A DNA stretch of 64,000 bases from Persephonella sp. (GTDB taxonomy: Bacteria; Aquificota; Aquificia; Aquificales; Hydrogenothermaceae), in contig NZ_JALVTW010000033.1 in assembly GCF_027023985.1 (NCBI RefSeq), forward strand, positions 1 through 64,000. The letters are read 5' to 3'. Made by a program: the position numbers and the translations under genes. Below the pieces are notes generated by a model, which made no database searches, was not told the DNA's origin, and saw only the letters and a program-made list of their open reading frames with translations. Shown one piece after another: positions 121 through 31,983 of the stretch (its first letter is position 1; every line of letters begins with the position of its first letter).

Positions 121-594
121 TTATCTCCTTTTCACTATATGTTGATAAGTTTCGCTATCTTGGAAATGTGGAAACTCTTTGAAGTGTTTCCAGTTTCCAC
201 CCCATTCTAAGCCTATTTCTTTTGCTATTTGTCCAAGTGCTTTATAGGCTTCTTTGTTGCTCCAGTCAGGCTTTCCGCCGCTCAAAGGGACACAGTCAAA
301 GGCTACCCCATATTGGTGATAACTTTGCCAGCCTCTTGCATTTGTCACTATCCGGTTTGCTTCTTTTTCTGATAGAGGATACAATCCGAGTTTTTTCCTT
401 TCTTCATTTAGTTCAGAAACAGTAATTCCAAATTCTCTTAATCTGCCCTGTTTGTATAGTATCCCTTGTTCTTCGGGGCTTCTGTAAGTGCAATAAATAA
501 GAACTTCTATGCCATTCTTTTTTGCAAGTTCCAAAAATTCTCTTGCTTTTTGCTGAGTAATTGGATGCAGGTCTTCTATTCTTCTACTTGCCAT
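121..594 (-). CDS. Phage endolysin, M15-family L,D/D,D-peptidase
   Basis: This 157-residue protein looks like the M15 (VanY/Ply-type) zinc peptidases that cut peptide stems of peptidoglycan at lysis. Visible family motifs are YRSPEEQ (about residues 38-44), SYHQYGVAFD (about 91-100, with the zinc ligands His and Asp), and EWGGNWKHFKEFPHF near the end, with the catalytic Glu/Asp region and third zinc His. The length suits a single catalytic domain with no separate wall-binding domain. There is no signal peptide, so it would need a holin to reach the wall. It starts just after the stop of the upstream gene with GGGGAG as ribosome site. Confidence 0.9.
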   Translation of the reverse strand: MASRRIEDLHPITQQKAREFLELAKKNGIEVLIYCTYRSPEEQGILYKQGRLREFGITVSELNEERKKLGLYPLSEKEANRIVTNARGWQSYHQYGVAFDCVPLSGGKPDWSNKEAYKALGQIAKEIGLEWGGNWKHFKEFPHFQDSETYQHIVKRR

Positions 595-1112: not shown

Positions 1113-1123
1113 TTCAAACCTCC

Positions 1124-5348: not shown

Positions 5349-5833
5349 GAGAATGTAACCTCCGTATTAACTGATATTTTGGGATATTCTTTGTCTAAAA
5401 CTGATATACCTTTTACTGTTAAGATAGCCCTATATTTGTTTATTCCTTGTTTGTCCGTTTCTTCCTGGAATTCAAATGGGGTTATGGATAGTTCCAGCTG
5501 CTCTCCATTTGAATCTGTTTTATATGGATTGTTTAAAATCAAAGAAACAATCTGGTCTAAAAGATTAATCTGGCTTTCAGGAATCTGAGCATTAAGTTCA
5601 AATGTGTAGATAAAATCATCAATTTTATATCTGATTGTTATTCCTGTATCTGTTTCAGTAGTTTTCCATCTTTTTCTGTTTCTTTTGATGCTTTGACCTG
5701 CAAACTCAACTACCAGCAATGGAATGGTGGAATGTTGCCCATATCCTTTATGGGCTTTTGTCGTATTAATAATCTGCGAAAAGTCAGCTACTAACATATT
5801 TAAAATCTCTTGGCTGCCTGGCATTTTAATCAT
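5345..5833 (-). CDS. Tail completion/terminator-like protein; probable leaderless mRNA
   Basis: A 162-residue protein whose central strands (TGITIRYKIDDFIYTFELNA) and LNNPY region resemble the tail-terminator fold that caps the tail tube, in the position of Mu gp37. Assignment is by context and pattern, not a firm match. It is the first gene after a late-type promoter whose predicted +1 is the A of this ATG at 5833, with no ribosome site between the -10 box and ATG. A second in-frame ATG follows three codons later. The tail genes down to the endolysin follow in one closely packed series. Confidence 0.6.
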   Translation of the reverse strand: MIKMPGSQEILNMLVADFSQIINTTKAHKGYGQHSTIPLLVVEFAGQSIKRNRKRWKTTETDTGITIRYKIDDFIYTFELNAQIPESQINLLDQIVSLILNNPYKTDSNGEQLELSITPFEFQEETDKQGINKYRAILTVKGISVLDKEYPKISVNTEVTFS

Positions 5834-5882
5834 GTAAAAAAGATAGAATGTGAAAAGGGCAAAAGTTAGGACAGGTTGGACA
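5833..5882 (-). promoter_or_regulatory. Late promoter P5 (leftward), predicted leaderless start
   Basis: On the minus strand the 18-bp element TGTCCAACCTGTCCTAAC occupies 5882-5865. After 19 bp comes TATCTT (5845-5840), and the expected +1 at 5833 is the A of the gene's ATG. From the element through the -10 box, the 43 bp are identical to promoter P27 on the other strand. Confidence 0.8.
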
Positions 5883-5891
5883 GGTAGAAGA

Positions 5892-6251
5892 TTAGTAGTA
5901 AAGGCTTACAAGTTTGACCACTTCTTCAAATGGAATTCTTTTGTTTTTGTCTTCCAGTGTTAGTATTTGACCTTCCATTATCCTATGATGGATAGTTGAA
6001 CGGGATATACCGGTTATTTTTGAAACTTCTCTAATAGAATATGACGCTTTAACTTCACCGAACTTTTCTATGCTTTTTTGTTTAACCCAGCTTTCATAAT
6101 CTATAATTACCTGTCTCTGGAGGTTCAGTTTTTCCTTTAGCTTTCTGTTTATTTTTGCTAATTCTTCATTTAATTCTTGCTTTTTTCTTATGAGACTTAA
6201 AATTTCTTCCTGGATTAAATTTCCTTCTTTTGCAGGAATTTTTATTCCCAT
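5892..6251 (-). CDS. Coiled-coil protein with C-terminal HTH (MerR/excisionase-like)
   Basis: A 119-residue protein. About residues 15-50 are a charged helix (IRKKQELNEELAKINRKLKE) likely to dimerise. About residues 70-95 are a helix-turn-helix of the MerR/excisionase type (SIREVSKITGISRSTIHHRI) with a following MEGQI-LTLE wing. It lies between the terminase and the tail operon and stops 10 bp upstream of late promoter P5. It could be a regulator or a packaging DNA-binding protein. It is one of several HTH genes that could encode the missing late activator, but nothing in the sequence singles it out. Confidence 0.6.
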   Translation of the reverse strand: MGIKIPAKEGNLIQEEILSLIRKKQELNEELAKINRKLKEKLNLQRQVIIDYESWVKQKSIEKFGEVKASYSIREVSKITGISRSTIHHRIMEGQILTLEDKNKRIPFEEVVKLVSLYY

Positions 6252-9243: not shown

Positions 9244-9293
9244 TGATTAAAAGATAAAACACACCAGTGTGTAGTGTTAGGACAGGTTGGACA
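9244..9293 (-). promoter_or_regulatory. Late promoter P9 (leftward)
   Basis: The 18-bp element (9293-9276 on the minus strand, TGTCCAACCTGTCCTAAC) is followed after 19 bp by TATCTT (9256-9251) and a predicted +1 at 9244. It leads into the nuclease and packaging genes 25 bp further on. The spacer contains a small dyad, ACACACTGGTGTGT. Confidence 0.8.
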
Positions 9294-11541: not shown

Positions 11542-12219
11542 CTATATAGTTTGGTTTGGTGTTCCTGTTGTTCCTCCGCTATCTCCCGGATGAGTATGAG
11601 AATTGTATGTATCCCTTAGCTGAGATAGTGTTCCTTTTGTTCCTCCCAAATCTGCTATTTGCCCATTGGATGTGATGTTTCCTGTTGTTAGGAGATTTCC
11701 GGTTATCTGCACATCTCCGGTTAGAAAAAATCCCGAAGGTGCTGTTAGCTCTACTTTTTTATATGACCCTGACCACAGGTTTGAAACATTTTCCGTTTTG
11801 TTGTTGCCAACCTGTTTTATCTCATCTTTTGGAACGTTTATCTGAAGGTTATCCTTCCCATGTTGTGGAATAGATTTTCTGAAAGGAAGAATTCCATCTA
11901 TGACTGGATAGGACAGACATCCATACAGGAATGACACTTTTACTATTGCTCCTTTTTCAGGAAGGAAAAATATTCCCCTGTTATTTCCAAACCCTATCCC
12001 AAGAATTGGAACATCTGGAATAACAAGCTCTGAATCTTTAAAGTCTCCACCCTCTGTAAGTTCTATTAGTCTTACATCAGCTGAATACAGGCAGTTCAGA
12101 AAATCAGATTTACCTGCCACTTCATAAACTTTTTCTACCTTTCCTAATACTGGCGGAGTAGGAATAGATACTGTCTTCTCTATTAAGCTTTTAATTTCTT
12201 CAATCTGTTTTTCAATCAT
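11542..12219 (-). CDS. Baseplate spike protein V (Mu gp45/P2 gpV-like)
   Basis: A 225-residue protein with an OB-fold-like N-terminal domain (about 20-110, LGKVEKVYEVAG, then IPDVPILGIG and GAIVKVSFLYG), a linker, and a C-terminal beta-helix region with repeats (GDVQITGNLLTTGNITSNG) ending in NSHTHPGDSGG, typical of the membrane-piercing spike apex with its His-x-His metal motif. It starts the baseplate operon. The predicted +1 of late promoter P12 is the A of its ATG at 12219 and no ribosome site precedes it, so the first gene may be translated from a leaderless mRNA. Confidence 0.85.
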   Translation of the reverse strand: MIEKQIEEIKSLIEKTVSIPTPPVLGKVEKVYEVAGKSDFLNCLYSADVRLIELTEGGDFKDSELVIPDVPILGIGFGNNRGIFFLPEKGAIVKVSFLYGCLSYPVIDGILPFRKSIPQHGKDNLQINVPKDEIKQVGNNKTENVSNLWSGSYKKVELTAPSGFFLTGDVQITGNLLTTGNITSNGQIADLGGTKGTLSQLRDTYNSHTHPGDSGGTTGTPNQTI

Positions 12220-12268
12220 AAGAAAAAGATATATTAGGGGAGGGTAGAGGATTAGGACAGGTTGGACA
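12219..12268 (-). promoter_or_regulatory. Late promoter P12 (leftward), predicted leaderless start
   Basis: The element TGTCCAACCTGTCCTAAT (12268-12251 on the minus strand, one base off the consensus) lies 19 bp before TATCTT (12231-12226). The predicted +1 at 12219 is the first base of the spike gene. It begins 2 bp after the stop of the A+T-rich cassette, so it separates lysogenic from late transcription. Confidence 0.8.
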
Positions 12269-12270
12269 AG

Positions 12271-12894
12271 TTAACTAAATAAAGTGACTTTCTTTCGATC
12301 TATTTGTTTTTTCCCTCTTAATAGTATTACTTCAACTTCCTTATTGCTTTTTTCATAATCTGCCTCATCTATCCTAATGCGAGGAATAGTTATAAGTATT
12401 GATTGCTTTGTTTCTTTTATTTTTATAACAAGCTTATTATTTTCTCTATTAGATTCGTATGGGAGGTTTATTTCATTTGTTATGACAACTTCAAATCTAC
12501 TATCAAAATGTAGTTCTAACTGATCATCTTTTTTTAAGTTTTCACAAAAAATCAATAGTGGTGATTCGAATATTAATACATATCCATTCCTTGTATTCTC
12601 CTTTTTAGGATGTCGATTTAAAGTTTTGACATTTAATGAAGAATCGGATGAAAATAACTTATTTCTAATAATATACATTATGTATAATAACAACAAGAAA
12701 TTAAAAGTCAACAAATATAGAGACAAAAATTCAAAATACTTTCTATTGTTATTTATAAATGTAAAAATTACATTTTTAACACTACCATTAAAAAATAAAA
12801 TAACTGGCAAACCTATTACAAATAGAAAGATATAGGCAAGATTTTTATAAAAAAAGTTAATAATATTTTCTCTTAACTTATCAATATCAATCAT
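12271..12894 (-). CDS. Unknown two-helix membrane protein of the A+T-rich cassette
   Basis: A 207-residue protein with two strong membrane segments (about residues 19-36 and 54-76) and a cytoplasmic or periplasmic C-terminal half (about 80-207) that is beta-rich (YVLIFESPLLIFCEN, then FEVVITNEINLPYE and LVIKIKETKQSILITI). It is the last of a four-gene A+T-rich run behind the repressor. Its ATG overlaps the upstream stop (ATGATTGA), implying coupled translation. No family is recognised. The architecture would suit a membrane effector of an exclusion or defence system, but that is inference. Confidence 0.6.
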   Translation of the reverse strand: MIDIDKLRENIINFFYKNLAYIFLFVIGLPVILFFNGSVKNVIFTFINNNRKYFEFLSLYLLTFNFLLLLYIMYIIRNKLFSSDSSLNVKTLNRHPKKENTRNGYVLIFESPLLIFCENLKKDDQLELHFDSRFEVVITNEINLPYESNRENNKLVIKIKETKQSILITIPRIRIDEADYEKSNKEVEVILLRGKKQIDRKKVTLFS

Positions 12895-13465
12895 CTTTGA
12901 TTTCTAAAAAAGTATCAATATTTTCAGATATTAATTTTATGATTTCTTCTTTTTTGTTTTCTACATTACTGAATCTAAATGTTTCGCCTTCATAATATAG
13001 TATATGTATTTCATTTTCTATTTTTATTCTCAGTGCTAAGCTAACGATATTATGTGGGAACTCATCCGGATATTTTATATAACTCTTTAAAACTTTATGT
13101 AAATATTCTCTTTCTATCTCTTCAACGAAAAAGTTAATCTTATCGGTTAAGTCTCTAATTTCTAGATATGCAATTCTATCTATTAAATCTTTTTCAAAGA
13201 AAAAATCTATAATCTGTAAATCTAATTTAAACCTTCTTAAACCTTTTTGAGAAAATTTAAATGATGAAAGCAATTTATCTAATGCCACAAAATCATTAAA
13301 AGAAATAGTCAAAAAATTGTATTTTGGTGAAACATAAGAAACAGAAAAAATTTCTTCAGAGTATAACTGCTTTTCTTCCAAATTGGATATCAATAATTCT
13401 CTTTCGTTATTGCTCAATTTTCTTAGGTCATAAATTTCAAAATACAAAAAATCTACGGTGACCAT
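12887..13465 (-). CDS. Unknown cytoplasmic protein of the A+T-rich cassette
   Basis: The start is taken as ATG at 13463-13465 (begins MVTVDFLYFEIYD), about 9 bp after AGGTGG. A TTG two codons upstream is possible but too close to the ribosome site. The ~192-residue product is rich in Phe, Ile, Glu and Lys with alternating strands and helices (YNFLTISFNDFVALDKLLSS, then LKSYIKYPDEFPHNI). It has no membrane segment or recognised motif. It sits between the 342-residue protein and the membrane protein, with which it overlaps, so the three probably act together. Confidence 0.6.
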   Translation of the reverse strand: MVTVDFLYFEIYDLRKLSNNERELLISNLEEKQLYSEEIFSVSYVSPKYNFLTISFNDFVALDKLLSSFKFSQKGLRRFKLDLQIIDFFFEKDLIDRIAYLEIRDLTDKINFFVEEIEREYLHKVLKSYIKYPDEFPHNIVSLALRIKIENEIHILYYEGETFRFSNVENKKEEIIKLISENIDTFLEIKDD

Positions 13466-13480
13466 AATCAATCACCACCT

Positions 13481-14509
13481 TTAATCTTTAAAATTTGAAT
13501 AATTCTCTTTTATTATTTCCCCTATCCTTGCATTTACTTCATCACTATCATTATTGATAGCTTTTATTATCAATGTGTATGATTTTTTATATATAGTTGC
13601 CAACTCTGACGGTTTTAATTTAGTATCTGGAATACCTATTTTCAACATGCCATCGTGAAATTCTATATTAATCTTTGTTGTACGCTTATAGTTAGAACCC
13701 AAGGAAAATCTTGATTCAAATCTAACTCCTGTTATAGAAGCTCCTCTTTCCATTATAAATTCCCAGAGCGTCGGATCTTCCCAAGGATCTCCTTTGAAAA
13801 TAGCATTTTTTATGTGACCTCTCTCGTTTTCAACGTCTATTCTATTAATACGTTCAACAGAAAATTCATTTAGAAGAGTTATAAAAAAAGCTGTTTTGTC
13901 TGATACAAGATTTTGTTTATATGATGGATTAATACTTGTTTTATTCTTAATGTGCATATCAATAAAATTTTGAGCAAAAGTCTTTTTGGTAGTAATTATT
14001 AAAAAGAAATCTTGGTCTGCGTTTCCTCTATTCAATTTTATACCGTGCACGATTTGTTCATCTTTTTCTATTCTTGGAACATTATGTGCATCAATTATAG
14101 GTTTAAATCTTACTTCTTTTCTATAATACGCATTTTCCTCAAGTTCAGAAAGTTCATCTTTTAATTTAAACTTTTCATGGAAGCCAGCTTCAAGTTTGCT
14201 TTTATTATCGAAATCTTCACCAGTTGCTAAATATGAACTAAATCCAAGAGATGATCCAGAAAGAATTTCTACGATTGATAAAAACTCTTCTTCAGAAAAA
14301 TTTTCATCTATTTTTAATATCTCATCGATAATATCCAACTTTTTATTCCTTAATAGTTCTTTCAATTTGTATTTTCTTCCCAAGTTTTTCAATCTATCTT
14401 CTAATATGGAAACCAATATAGCTTTTGTAAGTTTCTCTAGAATTTTTATTTTTTCTTCTTTCTCAAATGAATTAAAGTCCTCAACCTGAGCTTTAAATGA
14501 TTCCATCAT
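13481..14509 (-). CDS. Unknown 342-residue protein of the A+T-rich cassette
   Basis: The largest gene of the cassette. The N-terminal ~90 residues are helical and charged (EKEEKIKILEKLTKAILVSI). The rest mixes strands and helices (ADQDFFLIITTKKTFAQNF, then GASITGVRFESRFSLGSNY and KINIEFHDGMLKIGIPDTKL). There is no Walker, HD, PD-(D/E)XK or zinc signature that I can see, and no membrane segment. GGGGGAT precedes the double ATG start. Base composition is visibly more A+T-rich than the flanking tail genes, suggesting separate acquisition. It may be the soluble sensor or enzyme of a lysogenic conversion module. Function is unknown. Confidence 0.6.
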   Translation of the reverse strand: MMESFKAQVEDFNSFEKEEKIKILEKLTKAILVSILEDRLKNLGRKYKLKELLRNKKLDIIDEILKIDENFSEEEFLSIVEILSGSSLGFSSYLATGEDFDNKSKLEAGFHEKFKLKDELSELEENAYYRKEVRFKPIIDAHNVPRIEKDEQIVHGIKLNRGNADQDFFLIITTKKTFAQNFIDMHIKNKTSINPSYKQNLVSDKTAFFITLLNEFSVERINRIDVENERGHIKNAIFKGDPWEDPTLWEFIMERGASITGVRFESRFSLGSNYKRTTKINIEFHDGMLKIGIPDTKLKPSELATIYKKSYTLIIKAINNDSDEVNARIGEIIKENYSNFKD

Positions 14510-14532
14510 TTTTATCCCCCATAGATTTTAAA

Positions 14533-15168
14533 TTAAATAACCTTCCCACAAAACGGATCTAAATATCCTTTATAAGTTCTGCATTGTTCTATAAACCAGC
14601 TTTCTAAATTCTTGTTCTTTTTTACTACTTGAAGATTATTCATAATAATTGCATGTATAACTCTTCCATTTGTATTCTGTTTATATACTCCCAAAACTTG
14701 ATGTGGGAAATACTGCAGTCTGAAAATAAACTTGTCTCCATTATAAACATCTATATAAAACCAATTAGGTTGATTGGAAACCTTTGAAATTTCTTGAGTT
14801 AGATTTTTGAAGCCTAATGCATAGTCCATGAATGTTGCTTTCTCAAAGAAATGTATCTCTATTACTTTAAAATTATTATCAAAAGTTTTAATATTTACTT
14901 TCTCAGCGGATACCATATAAGGATGTTGTTGTAAAATCTGTAGAACTTCCTCAAATTTCTTGTTCTTTATTTGCTTAGTTTTTTCTATAGCAACTTTCGG
15001 TTCTTCTTTTTTTTCTGGAGTTAAAGCATCAACTATAAACAAAGCAATAAATAATCCTATGGAAATGAAAACAGGAACTTTTTTTGGTTTTTTCTTGATA
15101 AAAGCATAAGTAAGATACCCCAGAGATATAAAAAATAAAGTGCTTAATAGTCCCTGTAAAATCTCCAT
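14533..15168 (-). CDS. Unknown membrane-anchored protein next to the repressor
   Basis: A 211-residue protein with two N-terminal membrane helices (about residues 5-24 and 31-48) and a soluble C-terminal domain (about 70-211) carrying FDNNFKVIEIHFF, WFYIDVYNGDKFIFRLQYFP and a C-terminal pair of Cys (CRTYKGYLDPFCG). It starts 29 bp after the repressor stop with a GAGGGGAAG ribosome site, so it is probably transcribed with the repressor in the lysogen. That is the classic place for superinfection exclusion proteins, but no family match is evident. Confidence 0.6.
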   Translation of the reverse strand: MEILQGLLSTLFFISLGYLTYAFIKKKPKKVPVFISIGLFIALFIVDALTPEKKEEPKVAIEKTKQIKNKKFEEVLQILQQHPYMVSAEKVNIKTFDNNFKVIEIHFFEKATFMDYALGFKNLTQEISKVSNQPNWFYIDVYNGDKFIFRLQYFPHQVLGVYKQNTNGRVIHAIIMNNLQVVKKNKNLESWFIEQCRTYKGYLDPFCGKVI

Positions 15169-15197: not shown

Positions 15198-15875
15198 TTA
15201 CAATTTGCTTAAATTTACCAGTATCCTGCCTATGATTTTTATTTCTGACTGCTGGTCTTCTGTTATTTCAATATCGTTATATTCCGGGTTGTCTGATTTG
15301 AAAATAAGCTTATTGCCTTTTCTATCTCTTTTGAATCTTTTTACAAATAATTCGTTTTCTATACGGAACACATACACAGAACCTTCCAGCAAGAACGGTT
15401 CAAATTCCCAGAACCTTCCTACCAGGTAATCTCCCGGTTTTATAGTCGGATACATAGAATCTCCGTAAGCTTGTATCATAAAAAGTCCATTTCCAGAAGA
15501 TATGCCAAGTATAGCCTGTGCAAAAAGTTTGTCTATTTGAATTGGCTTTGGTTCTGATTCAACAGCTTCTATTCCTTCTCCGGCTGAGGCATATATATCA
15601 TAATAAGAAACTTGTAGGTAATTTCCTTTTGCTACCGCTGGAGCTTCCGTGAACATCTCCCCTACCCCTTTTTTAAGCCACTCCTCGTTGACGTTAAATT
15701 CTTTTGCAATGAGTTTCAAGGTGCTTTCGTCGGGGGTTCTCCTTCCTGCTTCATATTCTTGAATAGCCCTAAAACTCTTTCCTATCTTTTCGGCAAATTC
15801 CTTCTGAGATAAACCTAACATCTTTCTAAGCTCTTTTATCCTTTGTCCTATATTATTCATTTCTTTTTGTTTCAA
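15198..15875 (-). CDS. Phage repressor, HTH plus S24 autoprotease (CI/LexA type)
   Basis: A 225-residue protein from the TTG at 15873-15875, or 220 from the ATG at 15858-15860. The choice is unclear. An HTH of the XRE type covers about residues 10-60 (RIKELRKMLGLSQKEFAEKI). The S24 peptidase domain has the Ala-Gly cleavage site in YASAGEG (about 96-101), catalytic Ser in GDSMYPTI (about 139-146) and Lys in FVKRFKR (about 177-183). It should keep the prophage silent and self-cleave on DNA damage through RecA. This differs from Mu c, which is not SOS-cleaved. It reads away from the early operon, and the palindrome at 15946-15962 is its likely operator. Confidence 0.9.
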   Translation of the reverse strand: MKQKEMNNIGQRIKELRKMLGLSQKEFAEKIGKSFRAIQEYEAGRRTPDESTLKLIAKEFNVNEEWLKKGVGEMFTEAPAVAKGNYLQVSYYDIYASAGEGIEAVESEPKPIQIDKLFAQAILGISSGNGLFMIQAYGDSMYPTIKPGDYLVGRFWEFEPFLLEGSVYVFRIENELFVKRFKRDRKGNKLIFKSDNPEYNDIEITEDQQSEIKIIGRILVNLSKL

Positions 15876-16000
15876 TCATTATTCCATTTTGCAAATTTTC
15901 AATTTGGAATATTATCCACACAAAGGCACACAAAAAGTGTTGACATATTCACATTGTGAATATATACTTATTTACAACCACATAAACGGAGGCTAAATAA
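15876..16000 (+). promoter_or_regulatory. Immunity control region with early promoter and operator
   Basis: A textbook early promoter reads right: TTGACA (15940-15945), 17-bp spacer, TATACT (15963-15968). The whole spacer is the perfect palindrome TATTCACATTGTGAATA (15946-15962), so repressor bound there would block RNA polymerase directly. A second, imperfect inverted repeat (TTCCATTTTG...CAATTTGGAA, about 15880-15908) lies near the repressor start and may be an autoregulatory site. An AGGAGG-like site (CGGAGG) precedes the first early gene at 16001. Confidence 0.8.
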
Positions 16001-16186
16001 ATGTCAACCACAGGTAATATTAAACAGGAAAAAAGAAGTAAAGACAAGGTAATTTTAGAGCTCTACCAAGCAGGTTTCACTATCAGACAAATATCAAATA
16101 TTTTGCAACTTTCAAAAACTTCTGTATTCAGAGCAATCAAAAAGGATAGTTCCAAAAAGGGAGTAGAAGATGGAAAAGGCAATTAA
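16001..16186 (+). CDS. Small Ner-like HTH regulator, first early gene
   Basis: A 61-residue protein, mostly a helix-turn-helix (ILELYQAGFTIRQISNILQL, about residues 18-37, then SKTSVFRAI). It sits where Mu has ner, the negative regulator of early transcription. The HTH closely resembles the N-terminus of this phage's own transposase (ILQLYTQGFSIRQIAKITGI), so both may bind related sites. It has a good CGGAGG ribosome site 8 bp before ATG. Confidence 0.75.
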   Translation: MSTTGNIKQEKRSKDKVILELYQAGFTIRQISNILQLSKTSVFRAIKKDSSKKGVEDGKGN

Positions 16187-16373
16187 ATTCTTAATTTACT
16201 CACTTGCTATATCGATTTTAGTATTGTCGCTTTCGATAGAAAAAAATAGGACTCTTGAAATAGCTTTAGGAATAGCTATCACTGCTGGATTTATTTTCAG
16301 CTATTTGGCAATAGCAAAAATCTGCTCAAGCAAAAATAAAAAACAAAATGGCAACGATAATAAGGAGCTGTGA
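16170..16373 (+). CDS. Small early membrane protein, two helices
   Basis: A 67-residue protein with two hydrophobic segments (about residues 5-21 and 31-50) and a polar Lys/Asn-rich end. It begins inside the end of the HTH gene (17-bp overlap), so it is translated from the same early mRNA. No family is recognised. The early operon contains several such small membrane proteins. The last ~48 bp overlap an opposite-strand membrane protein gene. Confidence 0.55.
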   Translation: MEKAIKFLIYSLAISILVLSLSIEKNRTLEIALGIAITAGFIFSYLAIAKICSSKNKKQNGNDNKEL

Positions 16374-16547
16374 GATGTCTAAAGTAGCTTTGGAAGTTTC
16401 TTTTAAGCCTCTCTTTTCGGCAGAAACAGCAATTAAAGCAAAAACTGCAGAAAAAAGCAAACATACAAAACCAATAATGATGCCAGAGTTATTCAAAAGA
16501 AATTCTTTGCTCACTTTAAGCACTAAAAAAACTAACTTAACTTCCAT
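16326..16547 (-). CDS. Antisense small membrane protein (holin-like) behind late-type promoter P16
   Basis: Read leftward from ATG at 16545-16547 this gives 73 residues (starts MEVKLVFLVL) with two clear membrane segments (about residues 22-43, GIIIGFVCLLFSAVFALIAV, and 59-73) separated by a basic turn. The predicted +1 of P16 is the A of this ATG, so the message would be leaderless. It faces against the early operon. A competing rightward frame (16375-16623) has a ribosome site, but its residues look unlike a protein family and its conserved end is just the promoter DNA. Small size and topology fit a holin or antiholin, which is otherwise missing from this phage. Function is inferred. Confidence 0.5.
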   Translation of the reverse strand: MEVKLVFLVLKVSKEFLLNNSGIIIGFVCLLFSAVFALIAVSAEKRGLKETSKATLDISQLLIIVAILFFIFA

Positions 16548-16617
16548 ACAAAAACCATACTCCAAAACCTTTCCTTTCTTTAGGACAGGTTGGACAAATA
16601 CACTCCAAGGAGGCTCA
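16541..16617 (+). repeat. 77-bp duplicated block, copy 1
   Basis: This block matches 18101-18177 closely along its length, including a perfectly shared core (TTTAGGACAGGTTGGACAAA and then TACACTCCAAGGAGG). It bundles a leftward promoter and ATG with a rightward ribosome binding site. Confidence 0.75.
16547..16596 (-). promoter_or_regulatory. Late-type promoter P16, leftward inside the early operon
   Basis: Element TGTCCAACCTGTCCTAAA (16596-16579 on the minus strand), 19 bp, then TATGGT (16559-16554) and predicted +1 at 16547, the first base of an ATG. The surrounding ~77 bp are duplicated at 18101-18177. On the plus strand the same DNA supplies the AAGGAGG ribosome site of the next early gene. 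Confidence 0.7.
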
Positions 16618-16619
16618 AG

Positions 16620-16895
16620 GTGAAAACCATTGATATACAAAAGCAGATAAAAAAATACGGAAAAGTGAATTTCGTTAAAGGGGAACTACTCAAAAGAGGA
16701 TACTCACTCAAAGATTTTGCCCGTAATGTGCTTGGAATTCACGAAAACTTCCTGTATCAAATGCTCTACAAAGATGCACGCTCAAAGAGAATAGCAAAAC
16801 AGATAGAAGATTTTTTAGAAGTTCCGAGAGGTTCGCTTTTTCCTTACCTTCTGGAGCCTGTGGAAAATTCCAAAGAAAAATCTGAGGACAAATAA
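16620..16895 (+). CDS. Small HTH early protein
   Basis: A 91-residue protein from GTG at 16620-16622, placed about 7 bp after AAGGAGG. The body (KRGYSLKDFARNVLGIHENF, about residues 26-45, then LYQMLYKD) is a lambda-repressor-like HTH, followed by IEDFLEVPRGSLFPYL, the usual end of such domains. It is likely a DNA-binding regulator of the early phase. It sits directly downstream of the P16 element, so leftward transcription or an activator bound there could interfere with it. Confidence 0.65.
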   Translation: MKTIDIQKQIKKYGKVNFVKGELLKRGYSLKDFARNVLGIHENFLYQMLYKDARSKRIAKQIEDFLEVPRGSLFPYLLEPVENSKEKSEDK

Positions 16896-16897
16896 AA

Positions 16898-17011
16898 ATG
16901 GAAGCAGGCTTTTTTCTTATAGGTCTTGCAATTCTGATTTTAGCTTTGAACGCAGAAGATTTAATCAAAGCTTTTAGATGCAAAGATAAATCAAAAGGAG
17001 GTAACAAGTAA
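16898..17011 (+). CDS. 37-residue single-helix membrane peptide
   Basis: A short gene with ATG at 16898 encoding one membrane helix (about residues 3-18, GFFLIGLAILILAL) and a basic tail ending SKGGNK. Its stop TAA overlaps the next ATG (TAATG at 17009-17013), and its own last codons form the AAGGAGG ribosome site of that gene. This tight coupling supports it as real. Function is unknown. Confidence 0.5.
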   Translation: MEAGFFLIGLAILILALNAEDLIKAFRCKDKSKGGNK

Positions 17012-17478
17012 TGGCACACGCTAACTTTGGATGGGTTTACAAAAGGTTCATCAAAAGGGTAAATCCTCTGATTTTTCAGGTAAGAGCTGGCATTTCTCAC
17101 AAGACTGTTTACAGCTGGGCTCAAGATGCAGACAATCCATACTACCGCAGAGATCCTCTTTCAAAAGCTGTTGACATTTTAGACATTCTCAAAGACGAAA
17201 CACCAGAACTATTCCAACAGGTTCTACAAGAACTACTCAGAAGATACGGCTATGTTCCAGTAAAACAAGAAAATCCTTCTGAAGATGTAAAACTCTCCAG
17301 GCTAATGAAGGAGCTCAACGATGTTCCCCTAACAGAAGTAAACATCATGGAAGATGGAAGGATAACAAAAGAAGAACTACTTCAGCTCTTAAACGAAATT
17401 GATGAAGCCCTTGCAGTTCTCAATGAAAAAAGAGCAATTGTCAGACAAAAAGTAATAAGTCTCAGGGAGGAATATTGA
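17011..17478 (+). CDS. Phage regulatory protein with CII-like HTH
   Basis: A 155-residue protein. The N-terminal part (FQVRAGISHKTVYSWAQDAD, about residues 22-41, then NPYYRRDPLSKAVDILDIL) follows the plan of proteins of the phage CII/regulatory type found in Mu-like early operons. The C-terminal ~60 residues form a helical coil (ITKEELLQLLNEIDEALAVL). It may be a transcription regulator and is a candidate for the late activator, though it lacks recognisable Mor/C features. AAGGAGG lies 9 bp before the start. Confidence 0.6.
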   Translation: MAHANFGWVYKRFIKRVNPLIFQVRAGISHKTVYSWAQDADNPYYRRDPLSKAVDILDILKDETPELFQQVLQELLRRYGYVPVKQENPSEDVKLSRLMKELNDVPLTEVNIMEDGRITKEELLQLLNEIDEALAVLNEKRAIVRQKVISLREEY

Positions 17479-17479
17479 G

Positions 17480-17824
17480 ATGGAAGAAAAATTAACAGCT
17501 CTATTTTTCATGTTACTTTCTTTTTCAATTCTTATTTTTGGTCATCTGGCTTTCAGAATAACAAAGCTAATTTACACCATCCAGGATATCTTTGGACTGA
17601 GAGGGAAACCAAATCGCAAACTTACTGCTATAGAAAATACTATTACAGCGGGGGAATTGATATTAATAACAGGTATAGCCATTGCATTTTTGCATATGCC
17701 CGAGGTGGCAGGATTTTTGATTTTCACTGGGTTTTTGATGGTAGTAGTTCCTCTTAGCTATCTCTGGTATTTAGAAATCTTTTCTGAATTTCAAAAATTA
17801 AAGAAAAACAAAGAGGAGAATTAA
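17480..17824 (+). CDS. Early membrane protein, three helices
   Basis: A 114-residue hydrophobic protein with membrane segments at about residues 6-25, 52-70 and 76-97 and a short Lys-rich tail (FQKLKKNKEEN). The ribosome site GGGAGG precedes ATG by 9 bp. No family is recognised. It lies in a cluster of small membrane genes between regulators and the ParB-like gene. Confidence 0.55.
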   Translation: MEEKLTALFFMLLSFSILIFGHLAFRITKLIYTIQDIFGLRGKPNRKLTAIENTITAGELILITGIAIAFLHMPEVAGFLIFTGFLMVVVPLSYLWYLEIFSEFQKLKKNKEEN

Positions 17825-17825
17825 A

Positions 17826-17981
17826 ATGTTTGAAGTTTTTGCATTTAGCATAATAGGTTCGCTAATTATTACTTCTGCATTCGTTATTTACATGAAATTG
17901 CTCCAGTTGGAAATGCTCATAAATAAACAGGAACACCATAAACAGGAGAATACAAACAATGGTGAAGATAATGAGGCATAA
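17826..17981 (+). CDS. 51-residue single-helix membrane peptide
   Basis: ATG at 17826 follows AGAGGAG by 7 bp and starts 1 bp after the preceding stop. It has one membrane helix (about residues 5-24, FAFSIIGSLIITSAFVIYM) and then a polar tail rich in Asn, Glu and His. Its 3' part overlaps the opposite-strand membrane gene 17862-18107, so both strands may be coding here. Function is unknown. Confidence 0.5.
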   Translation: MFEVFAFSIIGSLIITSAFVIYMKLLQLEMLINKQEHHKQENTNNGEDNEA

Positions 17982-18107
17982 AAACCAGAAGAAAAAATTA
18001 GAGGATTTATCTTTGAATAAAGCTCTTTGCACATTAAATTTTGCGGTAATTCTTACTATTTCTAAAAACATATATATCAAAGCCCCAAACAATAATCCAA
18101 GTTCCAT
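17862..18107 (-). CDS. Antisense small membrane protein (holin-like) behind late-type promoter P18
   Basis: Read leftward from ATG at 18105-18107 this gives 81 residues (MELGLLFGALIYMFLEIV...) with an N-terminal hydrophobic helix (about 2-18) and a long second one (about 41-66, WFLCLIIFTIVCILLFMVFL), joined by a basic loop. The predicted +1 of P18 is the A of this ATG. Layout, size and start context (ATGGAA) match the other antisense gene at 16326-16547, though sequence similarity beyond the first residues is low. Two different small membrane proteins from duplicated promoters could be a holin/antiholin or pinholin pair. This is inference. Confidence 0.5.
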   Translation of the reverse strand: MELGLLFGALIYMFLEIVRITAKFNVQRALFKDKSSNFFFWFLCLIIFTIVCILLFMVFLFIYEHFQLEQFHVNNECRSNN

Positions 18108-18177
18108 ATCAAAACCATACTTCAAACCATTCCAACTATTTAGGACAGGTTGGACAAATACACTCCAAGGAGGGTTA
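18101..18177 (+). repeat. 77-bp duplicated block, copy 2
   Basis: Second copy of the block at 16541-16617, same orientation. The middle between element and -10 box has drifted more than the core, which fits selection on the promoter element and the ribosome site. Confidence 0.75.
18107..18156 (-). promoter_or_regulatory. Late-type promoter P18, leftward inside the early operon
   Basis: Element TGTCCAACCTGTCCTAAA (18156-18139 on the minus strand), 19 bp, TATGGT (18119-18114), predicted +1 at 18107, the first base of an ATG. The spacing is identical to P16 and to the six other late promoters. The plus strand of this block carries the GGAGG ribosome site for the ParB-like gene. Confidence 0.7.
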
Positions 18178-18182
18178 AGCAG

Positions 18183-19142
18183 ATGATAGTAAAACTACCT
18201 ATAAACAAAATCATAATTCCTCAAGGGCTACTCCCAAGAATTTTTGGAGTAAATGAGGAAAAAGTAGAAGAATACGCAGAAGCTATGGAAAATGGGGCAG
18301 AGTTCCCACCTATAAAAGTTTGGGAAAAGTTAGACGGGACCTATCAGGTAATAGATGGAGTTCACAGGATATCAGCTTACAGAAAACTTGGAAAAGAGTA
18401 TATAGAAGCTGAAATAATTCAGGGCATTGAAGATGAAGTTGCATTTATGGAATGGGCTATCAGAGAAAACCTCAAACACGGTTTACCACTCTCCAGAGAG
18501 GACAAAAGGGAAGATGCAAGAAGGCTATACATAAAGGGTAGAAAACCTGAGAGTATAGCAAGGCTTTTCAAAGTATCACTGAGAACTGTTTACAACTGGA
18601 TAGGAGATTTGAAAGAAGAAGAAAAACTTGAAAAAGAAAAACTGAAACAAAAGGCTTTAGAGCTTTACAGGGAAGGTTATACACAAGGGGAAATTGCAAA
18701 AGAATTAGGGGTCGAACAAGGAACTATTTCTAAATGGTTAAGAAATTATTCCACTTTGAAAGATTTCAAAACGGAATATCAACCCACCCAAGAAGAACCC
18801 TCTTATGAAGAGGAAGTAGAAGAATACGACGGAAGCTGGGACGACTGGAACGAAGAAGAGGAAACAGAAGAGGAGCAAGTAGCCGAGGAACCAAAAGCAA
18901 AACCCAAAAAAGAATCTTCAAAAGAAGAAAAGAAACTCTTACACCCAAATCACATACTTGAAAGAGATAAAAACGCAATCTGGGATGCAGTTATAGAAAT
19001 AGAGTTTCATTTTGGAGAAGAAAAAGCTTTAGAAGTTTTAGAAGAGATCTACTTCGCTTACAAAGAGAGAAAGCACAAAGGATTAACCATTTACAAAGAT
19101 AGAAGAGCTCTGTTTATATACAACCAAAAAAGAGGAAACTAA
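18183..19142 (+). CDS. ParB-like nuclease-domain protein with two HTH motifs
   Basis: The start is ATG at 18183-18185 (MIVKLPINKIII), 8 bp after GGAGGG. A TTG 33 bp upstream falls inside the promoter element and is not used here. The 319-residue protein has a ParB/Srx N-domain (IKVWEKLDGTYQVIDGVHRI, about residues 44-63, the DGxHR motif), one HTH (about 107-140, PESIARLFKVSLRTVYNWI), a second HTH (about 160-193, YTQGEIAKELGVEQGTISKW) and a very acidic region (about 205-250). ParB-like genes are frequent beside MuA in Mu-like phages. Here it lies 2 bp before the transposase gene and probably binds phage DNA. Confidence 0.8.
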   Translation: MIVKLPINKIIIPQGLLPRIFGVNEEKVEEYAEAMENGAEFPPIKVWEKLDGTYQVIDGVHRISAYRKLGKEYIEAEIIQGIEDEVAFMEWAIRENLKHGLPLSREDKREDARRLYIKGRKPESIARLFKVSLRTVYNWIGDLKEEEKLEKEKLKQKALELYREGYTQGEIAKELGVEQGTISKWLRNYSTLKDFKTEYQPTQEEPSYEEEVEEYDGSWDDWNEEEETEEEQVAEEPKAKPKKESSKEEKKLLHPNHILERDKNAIWDAVIEIEFHFGEEKALEVLEEIYFAYKERKHKGLTIYKDRRALFIYNQKRGN

Positions 19143-19144
19143 AA

Positions 19145-20596
19145 ATGGATAAGAACAAAATCCTCCAGCTCTATACCCAAGGCTTTTCAATAAGACAGAT
19201 AGCAAAAATTACAGGAATAAGCAAATCAACAGTTCACAGAATTGTAAGCGGGGATGTAGGAAAAGAGAGAAAAAGAGGAGAGAAAAACCTCCAGATTTAC
19301 AAATCTATGTCAGAGTCCACAAAAAACAAGCTTAGAACCCTATTAACCTTCCGCACAGAAGAAAAGGGAATTAGCAGAGTTTTGTCTTATTCCCAGATAT
19401 ACGAGCATATCAGGATTAATCTCCTTGCAGATAATATCAAGCTTGGCAAGAAAGCATTTTATGAATTTTTAGACTACTTCATCATAAGAGAATTTGGCTC
19501 TCAAGAAAACCTTGAAAAACAAAGAAGACTCAAAAAAGAGATGGCAAAATTTGTCCAGTCCAGAGGAACCGTAAAAAGAGAAGTTGGTCTGTGGGAGATA
19601 GATGCGACTGGCTATCAGTGGAATGGGAAAAATTACTCAATCATGCAGGTTATTGATACCTTCACCGGTTATGTATTCCCGGCAATGATTGTTGAAAACA
19701 AAGAGAAAAACGCAAAGCACTACAACAAAGCCTTTAATTCTCTTGATGTTGCTTACTACCTGATGACACTTTTTATCCAGTATGGAGTTCCAAAAGCCAT
19801 AAAATCTGACAATGATAAGATTATCAAAAACGATTACATCATAAATGCTTTAAAACATCTGAACATTAATTACCGGAACACAAAATCCGGAAAACCATCA
19901 TCAAAAATTATAGAGGGATTTTTCAAGAATCTGAAACTCACTGCCAGAACCATCAGAGCAACCGGTTTTGAGGGAAGTATGGAAGATTTATGGCATCTAT
20001 CAATTGAACACTTCAACAAAGAATCTCATAACTTTAAACACATACAGGGAGCATTTTCACCACTGGAGTTGGTCAGCTCATACGGACTTGGAACAAAACA
20101 GGTGGATGAAGAAACCATCAGAATGGCATTCGCCGAAAAATTTGAAAGAAAAGTTAGCAACAACCAGATACAGATAGACAACTTAATATACGAATTCATT
20201 CACCACAAAGTAGAAACAGACCTTGGAAGAAAAAGAGAAAATCTTGCAGTTGTATGTTTGAGAGACATTGAAAATATCACAAATCTTTTCGTTTATTCTC
20301 ACGAAACAGGAGAATACTTGGGAGTTGCCAAACTTATAAGCCAGCCAATACACCTTGACGCAGTATCGCAAAAACAAGCAGTTCAAAAACAAAAAAGAGT
20401 TCAGAAAAGAGTTCAAAAACTTGAAGCAGAAAAAACAATGCTTGAAGTAGAAGCAGTCCAGGAGGATCCTCACAAGGTAGAAATATCCACAGAACCACTA
20501 TACGAACAGCTTCAAGAAAACCTTATCAATGAAGAAGAACATCAAGAACCAGAAGAAGAAAACATATTAGAAAAACTTTTAATGGAGGAAGATTGA
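19145..20596 (+). CDS. DDE transposase (MuA-like)
   Basis: A 483-residue transposase that inserts and replicates the phage genome by transposition. The N-terminus is an HTH (about residues 5-35, QIAKITGISKSTVHRI). The catalytic core has Asp153 in GLWEIDATGYQW, Asp222 in AIKSDNDKII and Glu257 in SSKIIEGFFKNLK, the rve-type DDE triad. A C-terminal coiled region (about 415-483), rich in Gln, Lys and Glu, is where the ATPase partner contacts MuA. It is shorter than Mu A (663 residues) because it has fewer N-terminal DNA-binding domains. The MuB-like gene follows after 1 bp. Confidence 0.92.
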   Translation: MDKNKILQLYTQGFSIRQIAKITGISKSTVHRIVSGDVGKERKRGEKNLQIYKSMSESTKNKLRTLLTFRTEEKGISRVLSYSQIYEHIRINLLADNIKLGKKAFYEFLDYFIIREFGSQENLEKQRRLKKEMAKFVQSRGTVKREVGLWEIDATGYQWNGKNYSIMQVIDTFTGYVFPAMIVENKEKNAKHYNKAFNSLDVAYYLMTLFIQYGVPKAIKSDNDKIIKNDYIINALKHLNINYRNTKSGKPSSKIIEGFFKNLKLTARTIRATGFEGSMEDLWHLSIEHFNKESHNFKHIQGAFSPLELVSSYGLGTKQVDEETIRMAFAEKFERKVSNNQIQIDNLIYEFIHHKVETDLGRKRENLAVVCLRDIENITNLFVYSHETGEYLGVAKLISQPIHLDAVSQKQAVQKQKRVQKRVQKLEAEKTMLEVEAVQEDPHKVEISTEPLYEQLQENLINEEEHQEPEEENILEKLLMEED

Positions 20597-25557: not shown

Positions 25558-25607
25558 TGTCCAACCTGTCCTAACATGTTCCAGTCTTAAATATTATCTT
25601 GTTATCA
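25558..25607 (+). promoter_or_regulatory. Late promoter P25 (rightward)
   Basis: Element TGTCCAACCTGTCCTAAC at 25558-25575, 19 bp, TATCTT at 25595-25600, and predicted +1 at the A of TATCA (25607). It is followed by AAAAC and a GCGAGGTAG ribosome site for the tail chaperone gene. Confidence 0.8.
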
Positions 25608-25629: not shown

Positions 25630-26187
25630 ATGGAACTTAATCTGGAGTATCATGGAGAAAATTATTCTTTCAGATTTTCAAATCCATCAGAAAAAGACCT
25701 TAATGCATTTATAGAACTCAATAGAAAAGGAAAAACAGAAAAAGCCTCACAAGTCCTGGTCTTTTCATCTGTTGACCCGAGAGACAGGGCAAAACTGAAA
25801 GATGCCCCTCAGATAATAAAAGATAAAGTTGCGGTAATCATAGGTCAGTATTTAGGGCTTACAGAGGAGGAACCATATATCGAAGATGGAAAGCTGTTCA
25901 TTCCGGTATATGACCCTGATATAGAAATAGAAATGTTTGAACAGTTTTCCCTGAAAAATTTTGATTATGAAAAAGCGAAATCTCTACTTGTGAATGCCCG
26001 TGGAATAAAACTTATAGAAAAAATGAAAGAGGTAATATTAGACTCCGTAGAGGAAACACAGAAGATGAAAACACTATTAGAAAACTATCCACTACTGACA
26101 CTTAGGGTCTTCCCTGTTCTTGTAAAAACCGTTGAAGACGAGGTAAAAGCTCAAATAAAAAAGCCAGAGAGTTCTCCACAGAAATAG
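25630..26187 (+). CDS. Tail assembly chaperone, short form (zero frame)
   Basis: A 185-residue protein with an N-terminal beta part (LNLEYHGENYSFRFSNPSEK, then FIELNRKGKTEKASQVLVFS) and a helical remainder. It contains the classic slippery heptamer A-AAA-AAG at 26157-26163 in the correct frame, ten codons before its stop. A -1 shift there adds the frame 26163-26327. A pair of overlapping products joined by -1 frameshifting is the hallmark of tail assembly chaperones (lambda gpG/gpGT; also Mu-like phages). The downstream hub gene supports a tail role, although the tape measure gene is about 7.5 kb away. Confidence 0.75.
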   Translation: MELNLEYHGENYSFRFSNPSEKDLNAFIELNRKGKTEKASQVLVFSSVDPRDRAKLKDAPQIIKDKVAVIIGQYLGLTEEEPYIEDGKLFIPVYDPDIEIEMFEQFSLKNFDYEKAKSLLVNARGIKLIEKMKEVILDSVEETQKMKTLLENYPLLTLRVFPVLVKTVEDEVKAQIKKPESSPQK

Positions 26188-26327: not shown

Positions 26328-27040
26328 TATACAAACCTAACTTTAAGCTTATTATCGGAGACAGGGAAGAAACCCAGAACCTTTTAGAATTCGTTGTTGT
26401 ATTGTCTGCAAAGTTCCACACCCAGCACTGTGAACTGAAAATCTCAAACATAACACCAGGTATAGACGAAAAAATTGAGCTTTATCTTGGATATGAAAAG
26501 CTATATCCGGTTTTCAAGGGCTATATTACAGATGTATCAGACAAGCAGGTTAAATATATAAAAGCTAAAGATGAATATGTAAAGCTTCAAAACAAGAAAA
26601 TAACAGCATCCTTTAACCGAACTACACCCAGAGAAATAATAAATTCCATAATAAAATATCCAAAAGTATTAAGCGAAAAATCTTTTATCCAGAAACACCA
26701 TTTCCCAATCTGGAATGAATCCATAGACACAGCGTTAAGAAGAATACAAAAAACATGGAACCTTAAAAATTTCGTATGGTTCTTTGACATAGAAGGAAAC
26801 TTTCATTTTCATGAAGTAAAAAAGCTAAAGGACTATAAAACCCAGATCTCCGACGACGTGATTAAAGTAATACACCCAAGAAAAGATTTCACAGAGGTAT
26901 CCCTAACAAAACCGACTTTTGATATTTATCCCTTATATTCCATAAAAGTTTTTCAAAAAACATTCCTGGTAGAAAGCGTAATACACAAATATTCAGACAA
27001 AAGGCTTAATACTACCCTCAAACTGTCCAACCTGTCCTAA
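26324..27040 (+). CDS. Tail hub protein of the late control D/gp44 type
   Basis: A 238-residue protein with GTG start overlapping the upstream stop. The beta-rich front half (FKLIIGDREETQNLLEFVVV, then ELKISNITPGIDEKIELYLG and VFKGYITDVSD) and the later IHPRKDFTEVSLTKPTFDIYP resemble the hub domains of P2 gpD/Mu gp44, which sit under the spike and contact the tube. It is shorter than usual (300-380 residues). Its last codons (CTG TCC AAC CTG TCC TAA) are also the core of late promoter P27. Confidence 0.7.
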   Translation: MIYKPNFKLIIGDREETQNLLEFVVVLSAKFHTQHCELKISNITPGIDEKIELYLGYEKLYPVFKGYITDVSDKQVKYIKAKDEYVKLQNKKITASFNRTTPREIINSIIKYPKVLSEKSFIQKHHFPIWNESIDTALRRIQKTWNLKNFVWFFDIEGNFHFHEVKKLKDYKTQISDDVIKVIHPRKDFTEVSLTKPTFDIYPLYSIKVFQKTFLVESVIHKYSDKRLNTTLKLSNLS

Positions 27041-27093: not shown

Positions 27094-27972
27094 ATGAGTA
27101 AGAACCTGAAGCTTACAGCAAAAACAAACCAGAAATACAAGCTAAAAGAAACAGATGAATATATTGAAATTCCATTTGTGGCACTTTCTGAAAATACCGT
27201 ATTTAGACCTCTTATTGATTATGAGCCTAAAGATGCAAGCTTTACCCCTGAAGCTATAAAACTTACAGCTGAAAAATTAAAAGGTAAACCTCTCCTGGCT
27301 GACCACAGAGAAAGCATAACTCACATTGTAGGTGTTGTTGCTGATGCTGAAGTTGTTAACGGTGAACTGATAGCTTATGTAAGAATCCCTAAAGCAGAGG
27401 AAAAAATTGTTGCACTGGCAAAAATGAAACCTTCCCCTATTAGAGAAGTTTCTATCGGTGGCTATATCACAAACTACACCATAGATGAAGCTACAGGAGT
27501 AGTAACAATTAATGAATTTGAACCTATTGAGCTTTCTCTTGTTTTACAGGGGGCAGAACCAAATAACAGAAGATTAGACGCAAAAAAATCTAAGGAGGAT
27601 TTAGATATGCAAGAAGAAATCAAAAAATTACTTGCAAAAAACACAGAGCTTGAGTCCCAGCTCAAGCAAAAAGAAGAGGAGATCCAAAGCCTCAAAGCAA
27701 GCCTTGAAGAAAAAGAAAAGGAAGTCCAGAAGCTTCAGGCTGAAAAACTTCAGGCTGAACTATCTGCTTACAAAACTGAAAAATTATCTGAAGTTCCTGA
27801 AGAAGTAAGAGAGCTTTTAAAGGCAAGTCTTGAAGTAGCAAAAACAAAAGAAGAAGTTGATAAGCTCACAGCAACATTTAAAGAAAAACTTCCAAAAATG
27901 CAGGCTGGCTTAACTATTCCAAATCCAAACGACAACACAAAAACTGAAGACAATCCATTTATTACCTATTAA
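27094..27972 (+). CDS. Prohead protease with C-terminal scaffold (Mu gpI-like)
   Basis: A 292-residue protein. Residues ~1-165 look like a capsid maturation protease (FTPEAIKLTAEKLKGKPLLA, DHRESITHIVGVVADAEVVN and IREVSIGGYITNY with a candidate Ser/His set). Residues ~172-292 are a long coiled coil (ELESQLKQKEEEIQSLKASL) ending in a polar tail, typical of scaffold. The internal ATG at 27607 has a strong ribosome site, so the scaffold is also made alone. It is first in the head operon behind P27. Starting codons follow AAAGGTGAG. Confidence 0.75.
   Translation: MSKNLKLTAKTNQKYKLKETDEYIEIPFVALSENTVFRPLIDYEPKDASFTPEAIKLTAEKLKGKPLLADHRESITHIVGVVADAEVVNGELIAYVRIPKAEEKIVALAKMKPSPIREVSIGGYITNYTIDEATGVVTINEFEPIELSLVLQGAEPNNRRLDAKKSKEDLDMQEEIKKLLAKNTELESQLKQKEEEIQSLKASLEEKEKEVQKLQAEKLQAELSAYKTEKLSEVPEEVRELLKASLEVAKTKEEVDKLTATFKEKLPKMQAGLTIPNPNDNTKTEDNPFITY
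27607..27972 (+). CDS. Nested scaffold protein from internal start (Mu gpZ/lambda Nu3-like)
   Basis: In the protease frame, AAGGAGG at 27592-27598 lies 8 bp before ATG 27607-27609 (MQEEIKKLLAKN). This gives a separate 121-residue scaffold consisting of the coiled coil and tail. Mu I/Z and lambda C/Nu3 use the same device, producing free scaffold in excess over protease. Confidence 0.75.
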   Translation: MQEEIKKLLAKNTELESQLKQKEEEIQSLKASLEEKEKEVQKLQAEKLQAELSAYKTEKLSEVPEEVRELLKASLEVAKTKEEVDKLTATFKEKLPKMQAGLTIPNPNDNTKTEDNPFITY

Positions 27973-31933: not shown

Positions 31934-31983
31934 TGTCCAACCTGTCCTAACAATCCCACCACTTTAGAATTAACCTTTTATCA
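31934..31983 (+). promoter_or_regulatory. Late promoter P31 (rightward), portal to tape measure
   Basis: Element TGTCCAACCTGTCCTAAC at 31934-31951, 19 bp, TAACCT at 31971-31976, and predicted +1 at 31983 in TTATCAAAA. A CAAAGGTGA ribosome site precedes the portal gene. The -10 box is the weakest of the eight. Confidence 0.8.

Follow-up and report, generated by a model that had tools for sequence, protein, structure and literature searches.

Late-type promoters facing backwards in the early operon of a Mu-like prophage of Aquificota, and the predicted membrane protein cassettes to which they belong

Why should a prophage carry what look like copies of its late promoter backwards inside its own early operon, each aimed at the start codon of a small gene antisense to the early genes? 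The question is raised by a 64,000-nucleotide stretch of Persephonella sp. DNA (RefSeq assembly GCF_027023985.1, contig NZ_JALVTW010000033.1, positions 1 to 64,000; here called the window, on contig C33), the first 36 kb of which are a Mu-like prophage hosted by an Aquificota bacterium. It comprises a repressor, an early operon that runs from about 16001(+), ParB/HTH-like, MuA-like, and MuB-like genes, and structural genes that point leftward up to 12.3 kb and rightward from 25.5 kb on. A preliminary description had pointed to two 77-bp blocks with leftward promoters in the early operon and read them as one duplicated module for lysis and for the early-to-late switch. The explanation that we favor, and hold to be somewhat probable, is that each block forms the promoter-bearing end of an exchangeable cassette in which early and late genes are interlocked, a late membrane protein gene (L) being restrained by an early partner (E) and combined with an antisense early-to-late switch.

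The two blocks fall inside an 81% direct repeat (16527-16619 and 18087-18179), and each holds one of the eight exact copies of a 17-bp core, TGTCCAACCTGTCCTAA, that occur in the window. Allowing up to 3 mismatches to the core GGACAGGTTGGACAAAT still returned 8 sites, against 0.13 expected in shuffled sequences. Chance repetition as the source of the blocks was ruled out by the 81% repeat together with the eight exact copies. The copies start at 5882, 9293, 12268, 16596, and 18156 (leftward) and at 25558, 27024, and 31934 (rightward). Six of them point into structural operons with tail, baseplate, terminase, capsid, and portal-type genes, in keeping with the “late-type” label that the blocks had been given, and the other two point backwards within the early operon. 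The leftward structural copies precede the tail-type gene 5345-5833(-) (element at 5866..5882), a RusA-like/terminase operon (9277..9293, followed by a leader and a start at 9219), and the baseplate-type gene 11542-12219(-) (12252..12268). The rightward copies precede 25630-26187(+) (25558..25574), 27094-27972(+) and the capsid genes (27024..27040), and the portal-like gene 32006-33265(+) (31934..31950).

In all eight copies, a TA-rich, −10-like hexamer occupies motif positions 38 to 43, and because this position is fixed, transcription is predicted to start (+1) near motif position 50. Both antisense genes (ATG at 16547 and 18107) and the structural genes 5345-5833(-) and 11542-12219(-) have the A of their ATG at that position; the remaining four copies read ATC|AAAA, followed by a leader with a ribosome site. 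The predicted leaderless starts of the two structural operons are conserved in relatives, and the leaders of the rightward structural operons are 21 to 25 nt long, with ribosome sites. The coincidence of +1 with the start codon, which the preliminary description had proposed for the two blocks, is thus supported as a prediction by the alignment of all the late promoters. Both backward copies combine the 17-bp element with a −10 at the fixed distance, as does the rest of this structural-gene promoter class. Generic sigma-70 scans found 40 sites where 44 were expected and did not separate the backward sites from the background, so the case for promoters rests on the shared element. Judged from the sequence, “late-type promoter” and “leaderless start” are both well founded as predictions.

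The architecture resembles that of Mu promoters of the Mor/C type. In Mu Pm, the Mor dyad lies at −51 to −36, and a −10 but no −35 is present (PMC4287176); in the window, the element lies at −49 to −33, TAxxxT lies at −12 to −7, and there is likewise no −35. As among the Mu middle and late promoters (Pm, Plys, PI, PP, and Pmom), one type of element is common to all late operons (PMC4287176), but its sequence is unrelated to theirs. No Mor/C-family protein was found among the early proteins scanned, which did not include every gene. To our knowledge, Mu has no backward copies of a late promoter in its early operon that start at an ATG, whereas the window prophage has two.

The first cassette contains L1 (16326..16547(-)), predicted to encode a leaderless late two-helix membrane protein of 73 amino acids from the ATG at +1. 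Its promoter carries the element in the activator-type position (16580..16596(-), −49 to −33) and a −10-like TATGGT (16554..16559(-)) placed as in all the late promoters. Tail-to-tail with L1 lies E1 (16170..16373(+)), an early gene for a 67-amino-acid two-helix membrane protein with a hydrophilic C-terminal tail, whose 3′ end overlaps L1 by 48 nt. It is followed by X1 (16375..16623(+)), an early open reading frame (ORF) that is fully antisense to L1, has the Shine-Dalgarno sequence AAGGAG, and shares a GTGA overlap with the next early gene. The second cassette is built alike: L2 (17862..18107(-); predicted leaderless, late, 81 amino acids, ATG at +1), its activator-type element (18140..18156(-)) and TATGGT (18114..18119(-), assigned by the motif alignment), E2 (17826..17981(+); an early 51-amino-acid membrane protein with one helix and a hydrophilic tail, 120 nt of 3′ overlap with L2), and X2 (17959..18186(+), starting at 17959 or 17971; antisense to L2, with an ATGA overlap with a ParB-like gene). 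The proposed 73- and 81-residue two-helix proteins are borne out to the extent that both L1 and L2 have two hydrophobic segments, and the rightward ribosome sites noted beside the blocks are real. AlphaFold predicted a helical hairpin for L1 (mean pLDDT, 76.5) and for the L protein of the type found in a related element, L021 (68.4). The paired gene E, the ribosome-site-bearing X opposite L, and the promoter exchange among phage types described below had not been remarked on in the preliminary description.

The element was searched for in 136 Aquificota genomes and in viral contigs and was found in 4 of the genomes and among the contigs. Relatives of the window prophage carry the same structural promoters. 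Within the early operon, each also has one to three backward copies: G082 (L068) has two, L021 (the same as G066/L070) three, and G080 (L069) one. More distant Mu-like elements of the phylum were read in part, and those inspected showed no clear cassette. A further backward copy occurs in elements of a second Mu-like phage type, L076 (in G082:C3) and L011; the two types coexist in genome G082. Altogether, there are 11 cassettes in seven related elements; their L genes fall into seven families unrelated to one another, and in every case L lies antisense within the early operon. The idea of a duplicated module is upheld. Every backward copy has an ATG at element position 50 or 52 (48 with the second type's element), which opens an ORF of 68 to 81 amino acids with two hydrophobic segments. 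Since the L families mostly lack sequence relationship to each other, the shared two-helix form and fixed start are not a matter of simple inheritance. Chance or drift would not maintain an arrangement that recurs 11 times in seven elements.

The partners of L recur as well. A small early membrane gene E with its own ribosome site stands tail-to-tail with each L, overlapping it by 48 to 120 nt, and X begins at or beside the stop codon of E, has a Shine-Dalgarno sequence in 11/11 cassettes, and runs antisense through the whole of L and its promoter. In 7 of the cassettes, the stop codon of X overlaps the start of the following early gene (ATGA or GTGA). In L021, a homolog of E1 adjoins the homolog of L1 (89% identical in L070/L021); this pair stands before an HTH gene in the window and after it in L021, which shows that E and L move together. 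More generally, relatives whose early operons are otherwise similar differ in which L/E cassettes they contain and in where these are placed. In G082 (L068, reverse strand, oriented from 10500, 846-1397(-); MEKVSIAIAVTSGIATIISIA...), we also observed, close to the beginning of the early operon, a leftward ORF without a late element, which possibly encodes a further leftward membrane protein.

Because X and L lie opposite each other in a phase in which third codon positions are common to both, a hydrophobic L mirrors a hydrophilic X automatically, and the hydrophobicity of L is by itself weak evidence that L is a gene; for this reason, we relied on a null of antisense blocks and on a comparison of changes at codon positions 1 and 2, which discriminate where third positions are shared. 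The X/L phase was open in 36 of 196 ordinary 45-codon blocks but in all cassettes, and an open frame with two hydrophobic segments was seen in only 1 of 359 ordinary antisense blocks, versus all L families. When synonymous codons were resampled, the product over independent families was ~0.007 for an open X (from L) and ~0.0025 for an open L (from X), and with values so low, both frames appear to be kept open. In the L frame, position-1/position-2 changes numbered 3/1, 12/12, 19/10, and 7/2 in four comparisons, a total of 41 versus 25 (one-sided binomial, ~0.03); conservation of X would give the opposite pattern. Identity and BLOSUM scores of replaced residues were mostly in favor of L. Synonymous codon bias did not distinguish L from X, the values of both frames scattering between those of true genes and those of shadows. 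The substitutions thus modestly favor L as the conserved frame. The preliminary description had named, as an outcome that would speak against it, relatives that keep the rightward frames and break the leftward ones; the leftward frames are never broken, and the codon-level changes fit them better.

These data bear directly on a reading in which X is the gene and L only mirrors it, and in which the late activator binds the early-operon element so as to block early transcription. The ribosome site of X in every cassette, its four-nucleotide stop-start overlap in seven, and the automatic mirroring imposed by the phase would all be expected from it. We nevertheless consider it very improbable: position-2 conservation fits L and not X, resampled X codons rarely leave L open, the C-terminal ends of X are promoter DNA read backwards, and one element, L099, retains L at the +1 of a different promoter.

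That last observation belongs to a wider exchange of promoters. The second Mu-like phage type, found in the same hosts, has a late-type element of its own, the palindromic TGTTATATATAACA-N20-TAxxxT, which precedes its terminase operon and another operon, genes that lack the TGTCC element of the first type. Sites of this second element lie at 2128, 11532, 11990, and 19147 in L076, at 827 and 10313 in L011, and also in L099; none was found in the genome of the window. In the cassettes of L076 and L011, both elements stand in tandem upstream of L, and the 17 bp of the first type are exact in both despite diverged spacers, occurring there only at L genes. L099 (G069) has the same E/L pair with the TATATA element only, and the ATG is again close to +1. 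Late control and an ATG start have therefore been kept by independent promoters, which is, in our view, the strongest indication that L is a true late gene and did not arise as a leftover of site duplication. On the strength of these comparisons, it is very likely that L is a genuine gene under late control. A second antisense late-type unit was observed in L076 (12003(-)) and in L099, with a leader and a Shine-Dalgarno sequence, encoding a one-helix protein with a long basic N terminus.

We propose the following sequence of events. Early in induction, RNA polymerase would transcribe E and X from the early promoter, producing RNA antisense to L. As a presumed late activator builds up, it would start the leaderless L mRNA, and the L protein would enter the inner membrane late. 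Opposing polymerases and antisense RNA would then lower transcription of the transposition genes farther along as well as of E and X. E would most likely act early, as a partner that holds L in check or gives way to it, and X, as an open frame, would mainly allow translation of the early mRNA to continue past the antisense gene. The role of E as partner or antagonist of L is a tentative assignment. A contribution of the antisense arrangement to early shutoff has slightly more in its favor, although we would not call it probable. A terminator scan detected no leftward terminator just beyond L1 or L2, so leftward transcription could oppose the early operon and reach the gene of the LexA/CI-like repressor (15198..15875(-), a sequence-based assignment), which stands in the path of such readthrough. 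All four phages of the window's type have one backward promoter directly before the ParB-like and transposition genes; polymerase collisions there would lower transcription of those genes, and this placement fits a switch.

Could the antisense transcription be all that matters, with the backward promoters acting as an early shutoff switch and L as a by-product ORF? The constant antisense position in the early operon, the copy directly before the ParB-like/transposase genes, the missing leftward terminators, and the antisense late promoters known in phage AR9 (PMC5312081) are all consistent with such a switch. In 11/11 cassettes, however, an ATG at +1 or no more than 2 nt away opens a two-helix frame, and this persists through promoter exchange. 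Neither this nor the codon pattern of the L frame would be expected of a by-product, and we judge this explanation unlikely.

The preliminary description took L1 and L2 to be holin-like and noted that no holin was otherwise evident. The endolysin gene, a VanY/M15 peptidase (121..594(-)), lies at the very edge of contig C33, which ends just past it, before the holin-like gene of the lysis cassette, and this is why no holin was seen. In G080, genes for a two-helix holin-like protein and for Rz-like and Rz1-like proteins follow the tail genes, and the same set occurs twice in the window's genome, interrupted at contig ends within the holin-like gene (C2:3 and C35:65996). The absence of a holin was therefore an artifact of the contig end, and the claim does not stand. 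A need for L to serve as the phage's holin is not supported. The assembly breaks at a repeat inside the holin-like gene (G000 C33:1, C2:1, and C35:65998). The two copies of the lysis cassette make a second related prophage likely in this genome, with phage-type genes on C2; the copy on C35 adjoins a GmhA-like gene, as in G080.

A lysis module, with L1 and L2 as holins, E as antiholin, and lysis triggered by late synthesis, would account for the late promoters, for a two-helix L of 68 to 81 amino acids paired with an earlier small membrane protein, and for an endolysin sequence without an obvious export signal. L resembles holins in being small, in having at least two helices, and in lying behind a late-type promoter, and it differs from them in location, since the lysis genes lie past the tail genes. 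Pfam and PHROG scans of L1, L2, and their homologs gave no match to a holin family. The second phage type also has a relative of the holin-like/Rz/Rz1 set, one to three unrelated L genes per phage would be odd for a timing device, and the charged loop of L suggests an N-out/C-out topology. Known holin/antiholin pairs are likewise paired small membrane proteins of which one is late, but E and L face each other tail-to-tail from opposite strands and lie within the early operon, at a distance from the endolysin gene. L may be membrane active, though it need not be the holin, and among the explanations considered so far, the lysis module is improbable, rather more so than a switch with L as by-product.

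The tandem promoters raise the alternative of a cassette for competition between phages, in which L is a membrane toxin wired to the late activator and E is the immunity protein. In a lysogen, where E is silent, the activator of a superinfecting phage would turn on L and abort the infection, and during the lysogen's own induction, E would be made first and would protect. Consistent with this scenario, E and L move as a unit in diverse cassettes, phages of the second type have the first type's element beside their own at L genes and not at other late genes, and G082 contains both types. The tandem element may, however, be a relic of cassette transfer, L099 uses only the element of its own phage, and Pfam and PHROGs gave no defense or exclusion family match (PADLOC was not searched). 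We doubt that competition is the principal function, about as much as we doubt the switch without an effector. Promoter exchange, including tandem elements of two late-type classes, points to selection on the wiring itself.

Several observations weigh against the interlocked cassette as we have described it. Six of the seven cassettes with a TATGG-type −10 have, seven in-frame codons upstream, a TTG close to a purine-rich stretch, so a start that is not leaderless is possible in those six. L2 had no homolog in the viral contigs or the 136 Aquificota genomes. The codon test of L versus X is modest because the third positions coincide. The membrane action of L is suggested by hydrophobicity and by structural models of low to moderate confidence, and L matches no family; the lack of sequence similarity among the many L families could also be explained if the antisense promoter were all that counts.

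How does the cassette compare with known systems? Phage morons are small, self-contained transcription units inserted between phage genes, variable among relatives, and free to lie in the opposite orientation. The cassettes are likewise small, inserted between genes, and variable among relatives, but they use the shared late element of the phage instead of an independent promoter, travel with an early partner E, and are fully overlapped by an early ORF with a ribosome site. Among type I toxin-antitoxin systems, loci of the par/Fst kind have a convergent RNA that overlaps the mRNA of a small hydrophobic protein. L has this anatomy, but its opposing RNA is a protein-coding early mRNA, and the putative toxin-like gene is under a late phage element. 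In phage AR9, late promoters within phage ORFs also drive antisense transcription, with 5′ leaders of 26 to 491 nt (PMC5312081); in the cassettes, by contrast, a leaderless, protein-coding antisense RNA is predicted, and the arrangement is conserved between phages. Antisense late promoters and activator-dependent late promoters each have a separate precedent; for the combined arrangement, no precedent was found in open-access full text. We speculate, with the same reserve as for the role of E, that these loci form a class of mobile cassettes: a leaderless membrane effector driven by the late activator, antisense to a translated early ORF and overlapping a membrane partner, exchanged between unrelated phage types and rewired to the phage's own late activator or also to that of a competitor. 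Such cassettes may act in phage-phage competition.

Other features of the prophage give the setting of the cassettes. The operon containing E and X has a strong predicted early promoter (TTGACA-17-TATACT, 15940..15968(+)). The early gene after cassette 1 (16620..16895(+)) is weakly repressor-like, with an HTH (phrog_769, E=0.0027), and cassette 2 is followed by the ParB/HTH-like gene (18183..19142(+), by family scan) and the MuA-like transposase gene (19145..20596(+), by homology), our anchor for finding relatives. Relatives of the transposase carry the names Hydrogenothermus sp. and Aquificota bacterium, and neither the transposase nor L1 had a match among named phage records. Between the repressor and the structural operon, 12271-15168(-) includes genes for two membrane proteins; its content appears to differ among relatives, and these are possibly lysogenic-conversion genes. 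In the structural arm, an HTH/MerR-like gene of 119 amino acids (5892-6251(-)), a possible regulator, lies directly upstream of the promoter at 5882 and is kept in relatives.

If the interlocked cassette is confirmed, a single stretch of DNA would serve these phages both for the early-to-late decision and for production of a late membrane effector. The late promoters, turned against the early operon that contains them, would direct synthesis of the effector and at the same time counteract the early genes. The 11 natural examples in seven elements offer nested antisense coding with predicted direction and timing, in which mutual-antisense switching is directly testable. According to a paper from 2020, no virus of Aquificota had been isolated to that date (PMC7689252), and these prophages are therefore a route into a little-studied part of the virosphere.

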